A DNA stretch of 64,000 bases from Hymenobacter sp. BT18 (GTDB taxonomy: Bacteria > Bacteroidota > Bacteroidia > Cytophagales > Hymenobacteraceae): contig NZ_CP050954.1 of NCBI RefSeq assembly GCF_012273015.1, positions 3,388,001 through 3,452,000 of the forward strand, in the 5' to 3' direction. Made by a program: the position numbers and the translations under genes. Shown one piece after another: positions 4,725 to 63,826 of the stretch. Under the pieces are notes generated by a model. That model did no database searches, was not told where the DNA came from, and was given only the letters and a program-made list of their open reading frames with translations. Position 1 is the first letter of the stretch; every line of letters starts with the position of its first letter.

Positions 4725-4729
4725 CCAGA

Positions 4730-4818
4730 GTAAAACTAATAGCAGTGAGAGGTGAGCCTTTCGTTCTGGCAACGCGCCGTTGAACGAAAGGCTCACCTCT
4801 CACTGCTATTAGTTTTAC
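4730..4818. repeat. Perfect 36-bp inverted repeat between convergent genes
   Basis: The arms 4730-4765 and 4783-4818 are perfect reverse complements (GTAAAACTAATAGCAGTGAG at the outer end), around a 17-base loop that itself contains CAACG/CGTTG. It fills nearly the whole gap between the receiver gene and adenine deaminase. There is no T-run, so it is longer and different from an ordinary intrinsic terminator, though it probably stops transcription from both sides. Confidence 0.9.
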
Positions 4819-4827
4819 ATCTGAACC

Positions 4828-6492
4828 TTACACCACGGCTTCTACAAACCGGAAGGCTTCGCCATCGAACAGGCCTTTGTCGCTGAGCTTAAGGCTGGGA
4901 ATCACCAGCAGGGCCATAAACGAAAGCGTCATGAACGGGGCCTGCAGCGGGGAGCCGAGCTGTTTGGCCAGCGCATCGACGGCGGCATAGGCCTCGGCCA
5001 CGTGGTAGCCTTCCCGGTCCGACATCAGGCCTGCCACCGGTAGTGGCAAAACTAGCTCCTGCCCGTCGGGGCCGACGGCAGCCAAGCCACCGCGGGCTTC
5101 CATTACCAGATTTACGGCCCGGGCCAAGCTTTCGTCGTCGCAGCCTACGGCCGTAATGTTGTGCGAATCGTGGCCCACGGAACTGGCCAGGGCGCCGCCT
5201 TTCAAACCAAAGCCCTGGATAAAGGCCACGGCCGGCGCGGCCGGTTGGTAGCGGTTCACTACGCTCAGCTTGAGAACGTCCCGCGCTACCTCGGACAGTA
5301 CCATACCATTTTCCGTGCGGGCGGGTACGTCGTGGCGGGCCGTAATCAGCTGCCCGTCGAAGCACTCAATCACGCGCACCGTAGCGGCGGGCTGGGGCGC
5401 AGGCAGTTGAAAATCCTCGGCCCGCACGGTGGTGGCCACAAAGTTATTGACCACGGCCACCGGCCCGGCCGGAATGCGCGTCTGCCCATTTTCAGCCACC
5501 AGCTGCCCATCCAAGTAGGTCTGTTGCACCCGGAAATCGGTAAGGTTGTCGACCACGATAAAGTCGGCCGCGTCGCCCACGCGGAGGAGGCCCACGGGTA
5601 GGCGGTAATGCTCCACGGGGTTGCGGCAGGCCACGCGCAGCACCTTCAGCACGTCCTGGCCGCGGGCCACGGCGCGCTGCACCAGCTGGTTGATGTGGCC
5701 CAGCACCAACGTATCGGGGTGCTTGTCGTCGGAGCAAAACATCAGGTTTTCGTAGTGCTCCGGCAGTAAGTCAATCAGGGCCTCGAAGTTGCGGGCCGCT
5801 GAGCCTTCCCGGATCAGGATTTTCATGCCCACGGCCAGCTTGTCCAGGGCTTCTTCGGCCGTGAAGCACTCGTGGTCGGTGCTGATGCCGGCTTCGGCGT
5901 AGCGGCGGGCGTCCTCGCCGCGCAGGCCGGGCGCGTGCCCATCCACGGGGCGGCCGTACTGCTGGGCCAGCCTGATTTTCTCCATCACGCCGGCGTCGCG
6001 GCCGAGTACGCCGGGCCAGTTCATCATCTCGGCTAGGTAGCCGATTTCGGGGTACTCTTTAAATAATAGCTCAATGTCGGCGGCGGTTATTTCAGCCCCG
6101 GCCGTTTCGAAGGGCGTGGCCGGCACGCACGATGGCGCCCCAAAGCAAAACTTGAACGGCACCTGCGCCGCGCTCTGAAGCATGTACCGCACGCCTGCCA
6201 CGCCCAGCACATTCCCGATTTCGTGCGGGTCGGACACCGTAGCCACGGTACCGTGTGTTACGGCCAGCCGGGCAAACTCTGCGGGCACCAGCAAGGAGCT
6301 TTCCACGTGCACGTGGGCATCTACAAAGCCAGGCAGGGCGTAGGGGAGGGAGGCGTCGGGCTCGGTGGCGCCGGTAGGCTCAACGGCCGCAATGCGCCCG
6401 GCCGCTACGCGTACCGTGGCCGGGCGGATGGTGTTGGCAAACAAGTCGACCACATTGGCCAGCAGGGAAAAATCAGCAGACATAGGCAGCAT
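4828..6492 (-). CDS. ade: Adenine deaminase
   Basis: A 554-residue metal-dependent amidohydrolase that deaminates adenine to hypoxanthine in purine salvage. The metal motif is His60 and His62 in DAHVHVESS. TVSDPHEIGN, GHAPGLRG, ISTDHECF and FCSDDKHPD are adenine deaminase signatures, and the C-terminal adenine-deaminase domain contains KGGALASSVGHDSHNI. Length is normal for bacterial Ade (about 540-590). ATG at 6490-6492 or the internal Met4 (MSADF) could be the start; both keep the whole domain. It stands alone and converges on the receiver gene. Confidence 0.95.
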   Translation of the reverse strand: MLPMSADFSLLANVVDLFANTIRPATVRVAAGRIAAVEPTGATEPDASLPYALPGFVDAHVHVESSLLVPAEFARLAVTHGTVATVSDPHEIGNVLGVAGVRYMLQSAAQVPFKFCFGAPSCVPATPFETAGAEITAADIELLFKEYPEIGYLAEMMNWPGVLGRDAGVMEKIRLAQQYGRPVDGHAPGLRGEDARRYAEAGISTDHECFTAEEALDKLAVGMKILIREGSAARNFEALIDLLPEHYENLMFCSDDKHPDTLVLGHINQLVQRAVARGQDVLKVLRVACRNPVEHYRLPVGLLRVGDAADFIVVDNLTDFRVQQTYLDGQLVAENGQTRIPAGPVAVVNNFVATTVRAEDFQLPAPQPAATVRVIECFDGQLITARHDVPARTENGMVLSEVARDVLKLSVVNRYQPAAPAVAFIQGFGLKGGALASSVGHDSHNITAVGCDDESLARAVNLVMEARGGLAAVGPDGQELVLPLPVAGLMSDREGYHVAEAYAAVDALAKQLGSPLQAPFMTLSFMALLVIPSLKLSDKGLFDGEAFRFVEAVV

Positions 6493-12732: not shown

Positions 12733-13857
12733 ATGAAACTGCGCCACCTTCTTCCGCTTGCCGTGCTGGCCCCGCTGGCTTTGGCTTTTACGACGGCCCC
12801 CGCGCCCACGGCCGCCGATACCAACCTCACCAAAATCAAGCTCCCCAAGGGCTTCGTCATCAGTTACTTTGCCCAGGGCGTGAAAAGTGCCCGTGAACTG
12901 GCCGTAGGCCCTGATGGCACTGTGTACGTAGGCACCAAGGACGACAAAGTGTACGCCCTGCCCGACCGCAACAAAGATGGCCGCGCCGATGAAGTGGTGA
13001 CGGTGGCCACCGGCCTGAACTCGCCCAACGGCGTAGCCGTGCGCAACGGGGCCCTGTACGTGGGCGAAATTCACCGCATTGTGCGCTACGACAACATTGC
13101 CGCGCGTCTCCGGCAGAAGCCCAAGCCCGTGGTGGTGTACGACAAGCTGCCCAACAAAGAGTGGCACGGCTTCAAGTACATCAGCTTCGGGCCCGATGGC
13201 AAGCTCTACGTGCCGGTGGGCGCGCCCTGCAATGTGTGCGAGCCGGAAGAGCCCATCTACGCCACCATCAACCGCCTCAACGCCGATGGCACCGGCCTCG
13301 AAACGGTAGCCTACGGGGTGCGCAACACCGTGGGCTTCGACTGGAGCCCCCAGGACAAGGCCCTATGGTTTACCGATAACGGCCGCGACCAGCTGGGCGA
13401 CAACCTGCCCGCCGACGAGTTGAACCGCGCCACCAGCCCCGGTCAGCACTTTGGCTTCCCGTACTTCTTTGCTGGCGACGTGCGCGACCCGCAGTTTGGC
13501 ACCGGCAAAAACCAGGGCACCTACGTGGCCCCAGCCCAGAAGCTGGGGCCGCACGTGGCGGCGCTGGGCATGAAGTTCTACACCGGCAAGCAGTTCCCGG
13601 CTCAGTACCGCAACCAGATATTCATTCCCGAGCATGGCTCCTGGAACCGCAGTAAGAAGCTCGGCTACCGCATCAGCCTCGTGCGCCTCGATGCCACCGG
13701 GAAAAAGGCGCTAGGCTACGAAACCTTTGCCGAAGGCTGGCTGCAGGGCCAGCAAAGCTGGGGCCGCCCCGTGTGCCTGTTGGTGCTGGCCGATGGCTCC
13801 TTGCTCGTCTCCGACGACCAGAACGACGCCGTGTACCGCATCAGCTACAAAGGATAG
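12733..13857 (+). CDS. Sorbosone/glucose dehydrogenase-like beta-propeller protein
   Basis: A 374-residue exported protein: a signal peptide (LLPLAVLAPLALAFTTAPA) and a six-bladed propeller of the PQQ-dependent sugar dehydrogenase fold. IKLPKGFVISYFAQGVKSARELAVGPDGTVYVGT, GLNSPNGVAVRNGALYVGEI, WHGFKYISFGPDGKLYVPVGAPCNVCE and ERATSPG-like DELNRATSPGQHFGFPY are typical of the L-sorbosone dehydrogenase branch. It probably binds PQQ and Ca2+ and acts in the periplasm, but no PQQ synthesis genes are seen and the true substrate is unknown. It ends one base before a long palindromic element. Confidence 0.88.
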   Translation: MKLRHLLPLAVLAPLALAFTTAPAPTAADTNLTKIKLPKGFVISYFAQGVKSARELAVGPDGTVYVGTKDDKVYALPDRNKDGRADEVVTVATGLNSPNGVAVRNGALYVGEIHRIVRYDNIAARLRQKPKPVVVYDKLPNKEWHGFKYISFGPDGKLYVPVGAPCNVCEPEEPIYATINRLNADGTGLETVAYGVRNTVGFDWSPQDKALWFTDNGRDQLGDNLPADELNRATSPGQHFGFPYFFAGDVRDPQFGTGKNQGTYVAPAQKLGPHVAALGMKFYTGKQFPAQYRNQIFIPEHGSWNRSKKLGYRISLVRLDATGKKALGYETFAEGWLQGQQSWGRPVCLLVLADGSLLVSDDQNDAVYRISYKG

Positions 13858-13858
13858 T

Positions 13859-14124
13859 TAATGGGCGAATGTGGTTGAATGTGCTGCGCTTCGCTAAGGT
13901 GCTAATGAGGAACTGTCATGGCGAGCGGCGCGAGCCATCTGTCCTGCACAAAACCAGACACGACCTTTTACCAAAAAGCCCTTTCTCGTACGCAGCGGGA
14001 AAGGGCTTTTACATTTCAGGTCTGACACGTTGCCCAGGACGGATAACGTCGTGCCTCTTCGCCATGACCGCCCCTCATTAGCACCTTAGCAAAGCGCAGC
14101 ACATTCAACCACATTCGCCCATTA
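13859..14124. repeat. Large nested palindromic element (copy A)
   Basis: Outer arms 13859-13910 and 14073-14124 match in 51 of 52 positions as reverse complements. Inside lie imperfect inner arms starting GTCATGGCGA (13915, and minus strand from 14068), and at the centre a terminator-like stem AAAAGCCCTTTC/GAAAGGGCTTTT around 13974-14010. No protein is encoded. A related copy (B) occupies 62.33-62.59 kb; the two share a 20-base run, AATGTGCTGCGCTTCGCTAA, and both kinds of inner arm. It separates the sorbosone dehydrogenase-like gene from the protease/rimK genes. Confidence 0.88.
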
Positions 14125-14142
14125 GCCTCTATCTTGCCCCGC

Positions 14143-14616
14143 ATGAGAAAGCAGCGAGTACCCAAGCGCGTAGTAGGGCGGCGCGAGTTGGTGGACTTCC
14201 CGGAGTTCCAAATCTGGGGCGTAGAGGCAAAGGTGGATACCGGCGCTTATACCGGGGCCATTCACTGCTCCAACATGCACGTGGAAACCCGCCCCGATGG
14301 GCGGCAGGTGCTACACGTGCAGCTGCTCGACCCCTCACATCCCAACTTCGACGGCACGCCCATGCAGTTTGCCTCGTTCTCGCTCCGGGATATTCGCTCC
14401 TCCAACGGCGAGGTGCAGGAACGCTACGTTATCCGGGCGGTGTTACGGCTGTTCGACGAGGATTTTGAAACAGAATTCTCGCTTTCCGACCGTTCCGACA
14501 TGCGCTACCCCGTGCTTATTGGCCGCACGCTGCTGCGCCAGGGCCGTTTTCTGGTGGACGTGATGCGGCGTAACGTTTCGCACCGCATGGCCCAGCGTCC
14601 GGCCCATCAGCGCTAA
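14143..14616 (+). CDS. Retropepsin-like ATP-dependent zinc protease family protein (COG4067)
   Basis: A 157-residue protein of the family often called ATP-dependent zinc protease. The N-terminal [33 protein letters not shown] carries an aspartic-protease-like Asp32-Thr-Gly, and the C-terminal half has [19 protein letters not shown], the second conserved patch of the retropepsin fold. It is usually found beside rimK and a desuccinylase-like gene, as here. The ATG at 14143 is chosen over a TTG nine bases upstream. The biochemical activity is unproven in the family, so the name is historical. Confidence 0.88.
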
Positions 14617-61087: not shown

Positions 61088-62332
61088 TTACGTAGTGCGC
61101 ACCTGCCCCTGGCCGCGCACCAGCCACTTGTAGCTGGTGAGTTCTTCCAGACCCATGGGGCCGCGGGCGTGCAGCTTCTGGGTGCTGATGCCAATTTCGG
61201 CGCCCAGGCCAAACTGAGCCCCATCGGTAAAAGCCGTGGAGGCGTTGGCGTACACAGCGGCGGCGTCTACCTCGGTCAGGAACTGCTCGATGTGGGCCGC
61301 ATCCTCCGAGATAATGGCCTCGCTGTGCCGGGAGCTGTGCGCGGCAATGTGCGCCAGGGCTTCCTCCAAGTTGTCTACCGTTTTTATGGCCAACTTCAGG
61401 GACAGAAACTCGGTACCGAAGTGCGCGGGCCGGGCCTGCTCCAGCAACGCCGCTGGGTACAGCCCGCGCAGGGCCGGAAACGCCCGCTCATCGGCATACA
61501 CCACTACGCCTGCCTGGGCCAGGGGTGCCGTAAGCGCGGGCAGGTCTATCAGGCGCGCCTCGTGCACCAGTAGGCAGTCGAGGGCATTGCACACGCTCAC
61601 GCGGCGGGTTTTGGCGTTGGCAATGATGGCGCGGCCTTTCGCTAAGTCAGCAGTTTCATCGAAGTAGGTGTGCACAATGCCGGCCCCGGTTTCAATAACT
61701 GGTATTCGGGCGTGCTGGCGTACGTAGTCAATAAGTGACTGGCTGCCGCGCGGAATCAGCACATCTACGTAGCCCACCGCCTGAAGCAAGGCTTCGGTGG
61801 CCTGGCGGTCGGGCGGCAGCAGTGAAACCGAGGCGGGATGAAGTCCGTGCCGCGTCAGCACCTTCTGAATAACGGTGCTGATGGCCTGGTTGGAGTGCGC
61901 AGCATCGGAGCCGCCCTTGAGTAGGCAGGCATTGCCGGTTTTCAGGCAGAGGGCGGCCACGTCGAAGGTGACGTTGGGGCGGGCTTCGTAGATAACGCCC
62001 ACTACGCCCAGCGGCACCCGCACCTTGGAAATCTGCAGCCCATTGGCCAGTTCCTGGGCACTCAGCACCTGGCCCAGCGGAGAGGGCAGCGCCGCTACGT
62101 TGCCCATATCCTGGGCTATGCCTTCCAGCCGCGCCGCCGTCAGCTGTAGCCGGTCGTACTTGGGGTCGTCGGGCGACATCAGGGCTAGGTCCTTGGCATT
62201 CTCGGCCAGCAGAAACGGCGTTTCCGCTACGGCGGCCGCGGCCAGATCCAGCAGTACGGCCTCGATGGCCGCCGGGGAAAGCAGCCCCAGGGTGCGGCTG
62301 GCCTGCTGGGTAGCTTGGAAGATGTCAAGCAT
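61088..62332 (-). CDS. proA: Glutamate-5-semialdehyde dehydrogenase (gamma-glutamyl phosphate reductase)
   Basis: A 414-residue NADPH enzyme of proline synthesis. [46 protein letters not shown] holds the cofactor region; the catalytic Cys is in [17 protein letters not shown]; the C-terminal [30 protein letters not shown] is the ProA signature. It reduces gamma-glutamyl phosphate to the semialdehyde. ProB is upstream in the same direction, but the two are separated by a 265-base gap filled by a palindromic element, which is unusual for proBA. Confidence 0.96.
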
Positions 62333-62590
62333 AGGTTGAATGTGCTAATGTGAGAAATGTGCTGCGCTTCGCTAATGTGAGCAATGTGGGAAATGTGTCA
62401 TGGCGAGCAGGGCGAAGCCATCCGGCCTGGGCAACGTGCCCAGCTTCGGGGTGTGACAAGCCCCTATCCTGCGCCGCCCGCGTTGGGGCTTGCTGATAGA
62501 AAGATGCGTCTGGTTTTGTCCAGGACGGATGGCTTCGCCCTGCTCGCCATGACGCGTATTATCAGCCCATTATTCACATTTCTTCCACAT
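62333..62590. repeat. Large palindromic element (copy B) between proB and proA
   Basis: A structured non-coding element: outer (AATGTG)-rich tracts that pair in part, inner arms beginning GTCATGGCGAGCAGGGCGAA at 62397 and, inverted, ending at 62553 (about 30 matching bases), and a central stem CAAGCCCC/GGGGCTTG. It shares a 20-base run with copy A at 13878 and both of copy A's inner-arm types, but in swapped order, so its core is inverted relative to A. It lies inside what is normally the proBA operon. Confidence 0.85.
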
Positions 62591-62597
62591 GAGCACA

Positions 62598-63689
62598 TTA
62601 CCCCAGCTCTGCCGTCAGGAACAGGTAGTCGTAGTGCACCAGGGGCTTCTGCTGCTGCTGGCCCAGGCGCTCCAGGGCTTTGTCGGAGCCATACTCGGCC
62701 AGGCCCAGGCCCAGGGGCTTGCCGGCCTCATCCAGGATGCGGATAATGTCGCCTTTCTGGAACGTGCCCATAATGGCCAGCACACCTACCGGCAGCAGGC
62801 TGGTAGCCTGGTGCGGGGTGAGCAGGGCCGTTTTGGCACCGGCATTAATGAGGACCGCGCCTTTGGCCGCCAGGTCAGAATGCGCAATCCACTTTTTCTT
62901 GCTGGAAGCGGTTTTATTGGGCAGGAAGTGGGTGTTGACGACCTCCCGGCGCAGCAGGCGGGGCAGTACGTTTTCGGTTTTGCCGTTGGCAATGTGCACG
63001 GAAATGCCCAGCTGCGCTACTTTATGGGCCATATGGCACTTGGTAATCATGCCACCCCGCCCGAACTGGGAACGTTGGGTGGAAACAAACGACGAGAAGC
63101 TGGTGGTAGTGGGCGCAATTTCCGGGATAAGCTCGGAAGCCGGGTCCTGAGGGTTGCCGTTGAAGATGCCATCCACGTTGCTCAGAATCAGCAGGGCATC
63201 GGCATCGAGCATAGTAGCCACCAGCCCGGCCAGCTCATCGTTGTCGGTGAACATCAGCTCCGTGACGGAAATGACGTCATTCTCATTCACGATGGGGATG
63301 ATGTTGTTCTGCAGCAGGGCCCGAAAGCAGTTCTGCATGTTCAGGTAATGCTGCCGGTCACGAAAGTCTTCCTTGGTTACCAGCACCTGGGCGCAGAGCA
63401 AATCCTGCCGGGCCAGCAGCTCGGCGTAGGTAGCCAGCAGCTTCACCTGGCCCACGGCGGCCAGCACCTGCCGGCTGGTTACGGCGTCGGCTTTCTCCGA
63501 AACCTGTACCAGGCTGCGCCCCGACGCCACCGCCCCCGACGAGACAACAATAATTTCCTTGCCCTGCTTTTTCAGGTCGGCAATCTGGGCTACCAAGTGG
63601 CTGATGCGCGTCAGGTCGGGGAAGCCGTCGGCCTGCGTTAGCACGTTGGAGCCGATTTTTACGATGATGCGGTGGTAAGCAAGCGCCAT
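62598..63689 (-). CDS. proB: Glutamate 5-kinase
   Basis: A 363-residue amino-acid kinase for the first step of proline synthesis. RIIVKIGSNVLT is the N-terminal nucleotide region, IIVVSSGAVASGRSL and ARQDLLCAQVLVTKEDF follow, then PIVNENDVISVTELMFTDND with the substrate residues, and the loop SQFGRGGMITKC. A PUA-like C-terminal domain (KGAVLINAGAKTALL ... LLPVGVLAIMGTFQKGDIIRI) is present. A TACCTTAC -7-like box lies 23 bases upstream. ATG at 63687-63689 gives the usual start. Confidence 0.95.
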   Translation of the reverse strand: MALAYHRIIVKIGSNVLTQADGFPDLTRISHLVAQIADLKKQGKEIIVVSSGAVASGRSLVQVSEKADAVTSRQVLAAVGQVKLLATYAELLARQDLLCAQVLVTKEDFRDRQHYLNMQNCFRALLQNNIIPIVNENDVISVTELMFTDNDELAGLVATMLDADALLILSNVDGIFNGNPQDPASELIPEIAPTTTSFSSFVSTQRSQFGRGGMITKCHMAHKVAQLGISVHIANGKTENVLPRLLRREVVNTHFLPNKTASSKKKWIAHSDLAAKGAVLINAGAKTALLTPHQATSLLPVGVLAIMGTFQKGDIIRILDEAGKPLGLGLAEYGSDKALERLGQQQQKPLVHYDYLFLTAELG

Positions 63690-63712
63690 ACGCTGTCGAT
63701 GAGGTCTGGGGC

Positions 63713-63720
63713 GTAAGGTA
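63713..63720 (-). promoter_or_regulatory. Putative -7 box for proB
   Basis: On the minus strand it reads TACCTTAC, two mismatches in the last positions of TAnnTTTG, 23 bases before the ATG. Confidence 0.28.
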
Positions 63721-63826
63721 GGGCCGCCGTGGCAGTGATACCCAATCAATACTAGGTTGAGCTACAAAGTCTACCACTTATTGGCGGAAGATTCGTTGTA
63801 GTACCGCCCGCTTCTGTTTGCTGCTT

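Follow-up and report, generated by a model that had tools for sequence, protein, structure and literature searches.

Why a gap between two co-directional genes of Hymenobacter sp. BT18 should be filled by a long nested palindrome, and whether such a structure represents a mobile unit, a structured RNA or the outcome of processes acting on the DNA itself, is the question raised by the locus described here. The window, i.e. the whole stretch of DNA analysed, comprises 64,000 nucleotides, and positions refer to it unless designated as genome positions. The palindrome (element A) and the genes on either side of it are organised as follows.

12733..13857, + strand: gene upstream of element A, Pfam GSDH (glucose/sorbosone dehydrogenase)
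13859-14124, + strand: element A as a whole, in the gap between two co-directional genes
13859..13910, + strand: outer left arm of A, AATGTG-type words, starting 1 nt past the TAG stop codon (13855-13857) of the upstream gene
13911..13973, + strand: inner left arm of A, GTCATGGCGAGC...CCATCTGTCCTGCACAAAACCAGAC core (sequence and RNA fold)
13974..14010, + strand: central terminator-like hairpin of A, AAAAGCCCTTTC...GAAAGGGCTTTT (inverted-repeat search and RNA fold)
14011..14072, + strand: inner right arm of A, core in its CACGTTGCCCAGGACGG variant (sequence and RNA fold)
14073..14124, + strand: outer right arm of A, reverse complement of 13859-13910 bar one difference
14143..14616, + strand: gene downstream of A, Pfam Zn_protease, co-directional; an alternative TTG start at 14134 is possible

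The palindrome is real, a recount of its outermost 52 nucleotides (13859-13910 against 14073-14124) giving a match at 51 positions as in the preliminary description, and no gene was seen inside it, in agreement with the statement there that it has no protein of its own. Taken over 66 nucleotides (13859-13924 and 14059-14124) the arms show a complementarity of 94%. Between them lies a second inverted pair, and the middle is occupied by the terminator-like hairpin (stem 13974-13988/13996-14010). The RNA fold of the element has a z-score of -21.6, with none of 200 shuffles folding equally well. One arm of A scores 112 against its own partner and 63 against the best other arm in the genome, and the two arms look recently matched to each other. 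Within the window, AATGTGCTGCGCTTCGCTAA occurs three times at up to three mismatches (0.00 expected) and GTCATGGCGAG four times at up to one mismatch (1.04 expected), and a search of the whole window against Rfam at the gathering score gave no matches. Another near-perfect palindrome (z -17.5), devoid of AATGTG words and carrying GTTC...GAAC in its loop region, occupies a convergent gap at 4726-4828.

A related element (element B) lies near the other end of the window, between two genes presumed to be proA and proB.

61088..62332, - strand: proA-like gene, downstream of B, matched in 57 of 120 Hymenobacter genomes
62333..62599, - strand: element B, core arms and central hairpin amid AATGTG words, occupying the whole proB-proA gap
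62339-62396 and 62563-62599: AATGTG words of B, flanking its core arms
62598..63749, - strand: proB-like gene, upstream of B

The core arms of B (62397-62434 and 62516-62553) are 38 nucleotides long with a complementarity of 95%, the RNA fold has a z-score of -11.0, and the TAA stop codon of proB (62598-62600) overlaps the outermost word of the element, CACATTA on the plus strand. The sequence ATGTGCTGATGTGCTAATG, frequent in AATGTG arrays (e.g. 62339-62396), can be parsed as a series of overlapping mini-ORFs, each made of start, Cys and stop (TGATG, TAATG), with a conceivable link to reinitiation.

The core arms of A and B stand in opposite order on the plus strand, as had been claimed, and from this a single unit propagating in two orientations had been deduced. 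The swap is a strand effect, since B sits between minus-strand genes; in gene sense both elements carry ACAAAACCAGAC on the side of the upstream gene and GGGCAACGTG on the side of the downstream gene, and this equal order rules out one unit in two orientations for A and B. The order of the core is not fixed across the family, since the core at genome positions 1315450-1315720, which lacks AATGTG arms, has the other order on the plus strand. A and B are nested composites in which a GTCATGGCGAG core is placed inside the loop of an AATGTG-word hairpin, because outer hairpins and cores are each also found alone: cores without AATGTG arms occur at genome positions 1315450 and 3777916, and the short AATGTG members are plain hairpins (e.g. 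4177972-4178059 and 3772190-3772302). Copies are far from confined to two, as at least 35 palindromes were found in the examined parts of this genome and 12 other genomes of the 120 are rich in the word. Thus, the preliminary reading holds as to a dispersed palindromic family without an inner gene and fails as to one unit propagating in two orientations; target-site duplications, which it had proposed to look for, were not found.

The outer arms consist of AATGTG followed mostly by two to four nucleotides, reiterated at a spacing of mostly 8-10 nucleotides, with the complementary words on the opposite arm. The pattern AATGTGCTAATGTG has 136 matches at up to two mismatches in this genome as compared to 7 for the reversed pattern, and in the clusters the forward words come first (left) and the complementary words after (right). 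Loops of 50 nucleotides or more are present in 15 of the 35 members and contain, among others, the GTCATGGCGAG core (A and B), GTCATCCTGAG, CTCCCCTCC and AAAGCCC terminator-like hairpins; scored against single-base shuffles, eight of the 15 fold strongly (z <= -4.1) and seven do not (z at or above -2.3 to -2.4). When the outermost nucleotides (up to 75 per side) were compared within the genome, the best match of an arm was its own partner in 7 of 35 elements, so that copying of whole arms cannot be the general rule; exact arm templating as such a rule was accordingly set aside. An exact 22-mer of the family was found in named records of Hymenobacter only, and a search by name, sequence and description in the open-licence PMC literature, mostly titles and the beginnings of abstracts, gave no published description of it.

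The placement of the palindromes relative to genes is asymmetric. The 35 elements, a minimum, were drawn from 55 stretches (237,403 bases, window included) around listed word matches, with gaps defined by a simple codon-based gene caller written for the analysis; 26 lie in co-directional gaps, nine in convergent gaps and none in a divergent gap, as compared to 107 co-directional, 18 convergent and 18 divergent among the 143 other gaps of the same stretches (Fisher p 0.026 for divergent gaps). In 25 of the 26 co-directional gaps the distance from the stop codon to the first word is -2 to 11 nucleotides, the exception being an element 150 nucleotides from the stop codon in a gap of 887 nucleotides, and all 18 stop-side distances in the convergent gaps range from -2 to 25 nucleotides. 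On the start-codon side of the co-directional elements the distance ranges from 0 to 97 nucleotides. A word of another species, TAGCTGT in genome G058, shows a stop-side asymmetry like that of AATGTG, from few gaps: 15 loci, after removal of three within called genes and three repeats of a gap, left nine gaps (six co-directional, two convergent and one called divergent), with stop-side distances of 4 to 7 nucleotides in seven of them, the exceptions being the divergent gap and one element in a gap of 1359 nucleotides.

Other Hymenobacter species use other words throughout their genomes. The AATGTG pattern at up to one mismatch has at least 14 matches in 13 of the 120 genomes of the genus and six or fewer in the rest, while TAGCTGTTAGCTGT has 267 matches in G058, 192 in G065, 185 in G003 and 13 in the BT18 genome, with 0-2 for the reversed controls, and GAGTTATGAGTTAT has 171 in G106, 164 in G006 and none in BT18, its reversed control being unclean (0-3 matches in most genomes and as many as 25 in some). 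The reversed control word TATTGAGTATTGAG itself has 22-25 matches at up to one mismatch in G003, G087 and G031 and perhaps represents another word family. Three words, namely the AATGTG pattern, TAGCTGTTAGCTGT and GAGTTATGAGTTAT, are thus dispersed genome-wide in their species, and words of seven nucleotides occur in other species of the genus. Outside the genus and within the same order, 40 of 88 atpD matches were examined: some atpD-atpC gaps (G121, G162, G134, G167 and G170) resemble word hairpins made of other words, as judged by eye, nine of the 40 are 29 nucleotides or shorter, others carry ordinary hairpins and five gave no start codon. The AATGTG family belongs to a wider class of hairpins, present in this genus and probably in other families of the order, with arms that are arrays of 7-10 nt words differing by species.

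The atpD-atpC gap permits a comparison of one site across many genomes. In BT18 it holds an AATGTG element (genome 3491326-3491427) between genes presumed to be atpD and atpC. Of 120 Hymenobacter genomes 90 were covered at this gap, and a hairpin is present in 87 of the 90 (gap of 76-162 nucleotides, z <= -3.7 with a median of -8.1 against dinucleotide shuffles); the remaining three have a gap of 10 nucleotides and no hairpin. The sequence types, assigned by script with some borderline cases such as G043, are AATGTG (21 genomes), REP-like GTCATGCTGA (12), GAGTTAT/GAATTAT (11), CAGTTG (11), ATTGTTG (10), TAGCTG (8), ATGGTTG (5) and TGCTTGG (3), along with a class of six others and the three without any, i.e. 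at least eight types, at least seven of which are word families. On the atpD tree, in which 15 of 87 inner branches are weakly supported, at least 49 changes of type are needed, the maximum possible being 69 and 100 label shuffles giving 54-66 (mean 61); the types are therefore inherited to a degree and yet often replaced. Hairpins are rarer at the proB-proA gap, where 14 of 25 readable genomes have one at z <= -3 and 11 lack a strong one (five of 30 loci had no usable gap; single-base shuffles; Fisher p 1.5e-6), and among those co-directional gaps of the window that could be folded (5 of 23, counting A and B; p 1e-13), the two orthologous gaps having been picked because the BT18 genome has a hairpin at both. 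The persistence of a hairpin in the atpD-atpC gap suggests that one is useful at this site.

The best case of gain or loss is offered by G060, with 81 nucleotides between TAA and TTCAACTGAC, and G061, G063 and G085, with a gap of 10 nucleotides; no duplication is evident, and one gain or two losses may account for the difference. Several other features of the site were observed. The gaps of G012 and G022 (loci L219 and L228) are identical over 139 nucleotides; the atpD tree does not place the two species as sisters, and the identity hints at transfer or an error of the tree. Among the 69 word-type hairpins each of the seven families has the G/T-rich strand as the 5' arm (family means of G+T in the first half 0.61-0.74), the REP types being neutral (0.49). 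An apical GTTC/GAAC, a motif chosen by eye after the loops had been inspected, is found in 9 of 20 hairpins of the BT18 genome, 14 of 29 of G058 and 24 of 75 atpD-atpC hairpins (3.1, 5.2 and 11.9 in shuffles); by atpD-atpC type it is present in 5/5 ATGGTTG, 3/3 TGCTTGG, 2/21 AATGTG, 0/10 ATTGTTG, 0/8 TAGCTG and 0/12 REP-type hairpins.

One rival explanation of the elements, considered somewhat unlikely, is selection on hairpins in the transcript, a stem behind the stop codon protecting the upstream message or coupling the stop and start codons translationally, so that the fold alone matters and the sequence is free. The folding of 87 of 90 atpD-atpC gaps despite frequent change of type, the restriction of the three hairpin-less genomes to a 10-nt gap, and the abutment of the elements on stop codons with none in divergent gaps favour it, as does the proposal that cyanobacterial STRR hairpins might stabilise the transcript or couple translation (PMC2670836). 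On the other hand, 11 of 25 proB-proA gaps and three of 90 atpD-atpC gaps do without a strong hairpin or any hairpin, respectively. RNA helices tolerate G-U pairs, and selection acting pair by pair on the transcript should give more G-U than A-C mismatches in the sense strand. Over all types the arms of the atpD-atpC gap carry 83 G-U and 70 A-C mismatches (p 0.33), although a lone mismatch may be close to neutral in a long stem, and the co-directional elements of BT18 carry 21 and 30 (p 0.26). An RNA-level pairing signal in the form of a G-U excess is thus absent over all types, though present within the AATGTG (28:14) and ATTGTTG (7:1) gaps, where it leans toward selection on the RNA; a control with seven tRNA acceptor stems (no G-U, one A-C) was too small to inform. 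Joint change of the two arms was found in the ATTGTTG group (10 orthologues), with both sides changed in 11 of 27 pairs and 28 cells of the alignment changed on both sides as compared to 6.4 in shuffles, and this covariation is also what transcript selection would produce. In the AATGTG group (8 orthologues) none of 31 pairs showed a two-sided change.

The dispersal of the palindromes, their loops and their nested copies also recall REPINs, i.e. non-autonomous palindromes that a REP-associated tyrosine (Y1) transposase mobilises in trans, and Y1_Tnp matches above the cut-off are present in 82 of the 120 genomes of the genus. Such mobilisation is improbable here: a search for the Y1 transposase (PF01797) gave no match in the BT18 genome and matches in 5 of 14 genomes used as controls, 6 of the 13 genomes rich in AATGTG (at least 14 matches) have none, and the arms are arrays of words with no fixed REP. 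The own-genome and genus-wide searches thus show no association with Y1/RAYT genes. That the elements are ordinary bidirectional transcription terminators is very improbable, in spite of the terminator-like central hairpin of A and the nine of 35 elements in convergent gaps. The AATGTG arms end in ...CACATTA without a T run in the elements inspected by eye, and co-directional genes flank 26 of the 35; among these gaps are atpD-atpC and proB-proA, in which a strong terminator would interrupt the operon. A G+C-rich stem followed by a T run, as in intrinsic terminators, is lacking in the outer hairpins, and just the central hairpin of A resembles one.

The explanation preferred here, at roughly an even chance of being correct, is that A and B belong, as composites, to a family of long DNA palindromes spread over the genome, with arms built as arrays of an 8-10 nt word, which would be renewed at the level of DNA by slippage and template switching. 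Under this mechanism, the hairpins would be created and renewed in the DNA, slippage altering the number of words and template switching within a hairpin copying changes from arm to arm (quasipalindrome mutation), while some dispersal agent would copy words between loci. The hairpins would be tolerated directly behind stop codons, presumably because a hairpin, once looped out of the transcript, leaves the following start codon near the stop codon, and at some sites, such as atpD-atpC, would be useful, one being retained whatever its sequence. The dispersal, the stop-side placement, the species-specific words, the turnover of types, the near equality of G-U and A-C, the joint change of arms and the nesting support it. 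Against it stand the lack of an identified mobilising gene and of a target-site duplication, the few elements whose arms match each other best, the lack of two-sided change in the AATGTG group, the G-U excess within the AATGTG and ATTGTTG groups, the one divergent gap of G058 and the seven long loops that do not fold; the persistence at atpD-atpC, moreover, suggests selection on structure, which a pure DNA-level view does not need, and hairpins are probably kept at some sites. A broader proposal, put forward tentatively and with less than an even chance, is that self-renewing DNA hairpins in species-specific words of 7-10 nucleotides have spread among gene ends in this genus and some relatives, with the word at fixed sites swapped repeatedly while the presence of a hairpin is kept, i.e. 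a structure inherited without its sequence. If true, one operon site keeping a hairpin through many changes of sequence type would constitute a natural experiment, in which it is testable whether bacterial intergenic hairpins persist owing to a function in the transcript or simply by renewing themselves as DNA, and the little-studied STRR hairpins of cyanobacteria would be extended to another bacterial group, with many words and many genomes.

Among the known systems, some provide partial counterparts. Quasipalindrome template-switch mutation has been described (PMC7202029 and PMC3820800); it is a mutational process and not a family of elements, and its role in the Hymenobacter hairpins would be that of a contributing mechanism. 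CGTC-tagged REPs (PMC3733652) occur mostly as head-to-head pairs between co-directional and convergent genes, have no dedicated transposase known, and carry a CGTC/TGTC tag, a stem of 8-9 bp starting with AT, a loop of 4-5 nucleotides and a CCA-like tail. The inner core of A and B likewise starts with CGTC or TGTC followed by AT, but its own stem, as judged by eye, is about 5 bp (ATGGC/GCCAT) in place of 8-9 bp, and word-array arms surround it in both elements, so that it was not accepted as a CGTC REP. The TAACTGA heptamer repeats form short-word intergenic arrays, also in five Bacteroidetes, as do the Hymenobacter words, but they are direct repeats located mostly upstream of start codons in the main species (PMC4679880), whereas the Hymenobacter arrays are palindromic pairs behind stop codons.

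The P6b stem of the Nostoc tRNA-Leu (UAA) intron is similarly built of repeat words: it always carries one or the other of two 7-nt motifs, and the motif has shifted repeatedly and independently at the same site (PMC4476775); it concerns one intron site and two motifs, whereas the atpD-atpC gap has at least seven word families, and three words are dispersed genome-wide. The closest known system is the STRR hairpins of filamentous cyanobacteria, which usually consist of 7-bp repeats and occur, for example, in the hupS-hupL gap, and for which PMC2670836 gives the function as unknown, with stability or coupling proposed. As in STRRs, short repeated units form an array in a gap within an operon and fold there into a hairpin, and by analogy the AATGTG hairpins may be regarded as STRR-like. 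They differ in occurring in Hymenobacter, at stop codons, with units of 8-10 nucleotides in place of the 7-bp cyanobacterial unit, and the Hymenobacter hairpins as a whole are distinguished by words specific to the species and by the switching of words at one orthologous site.
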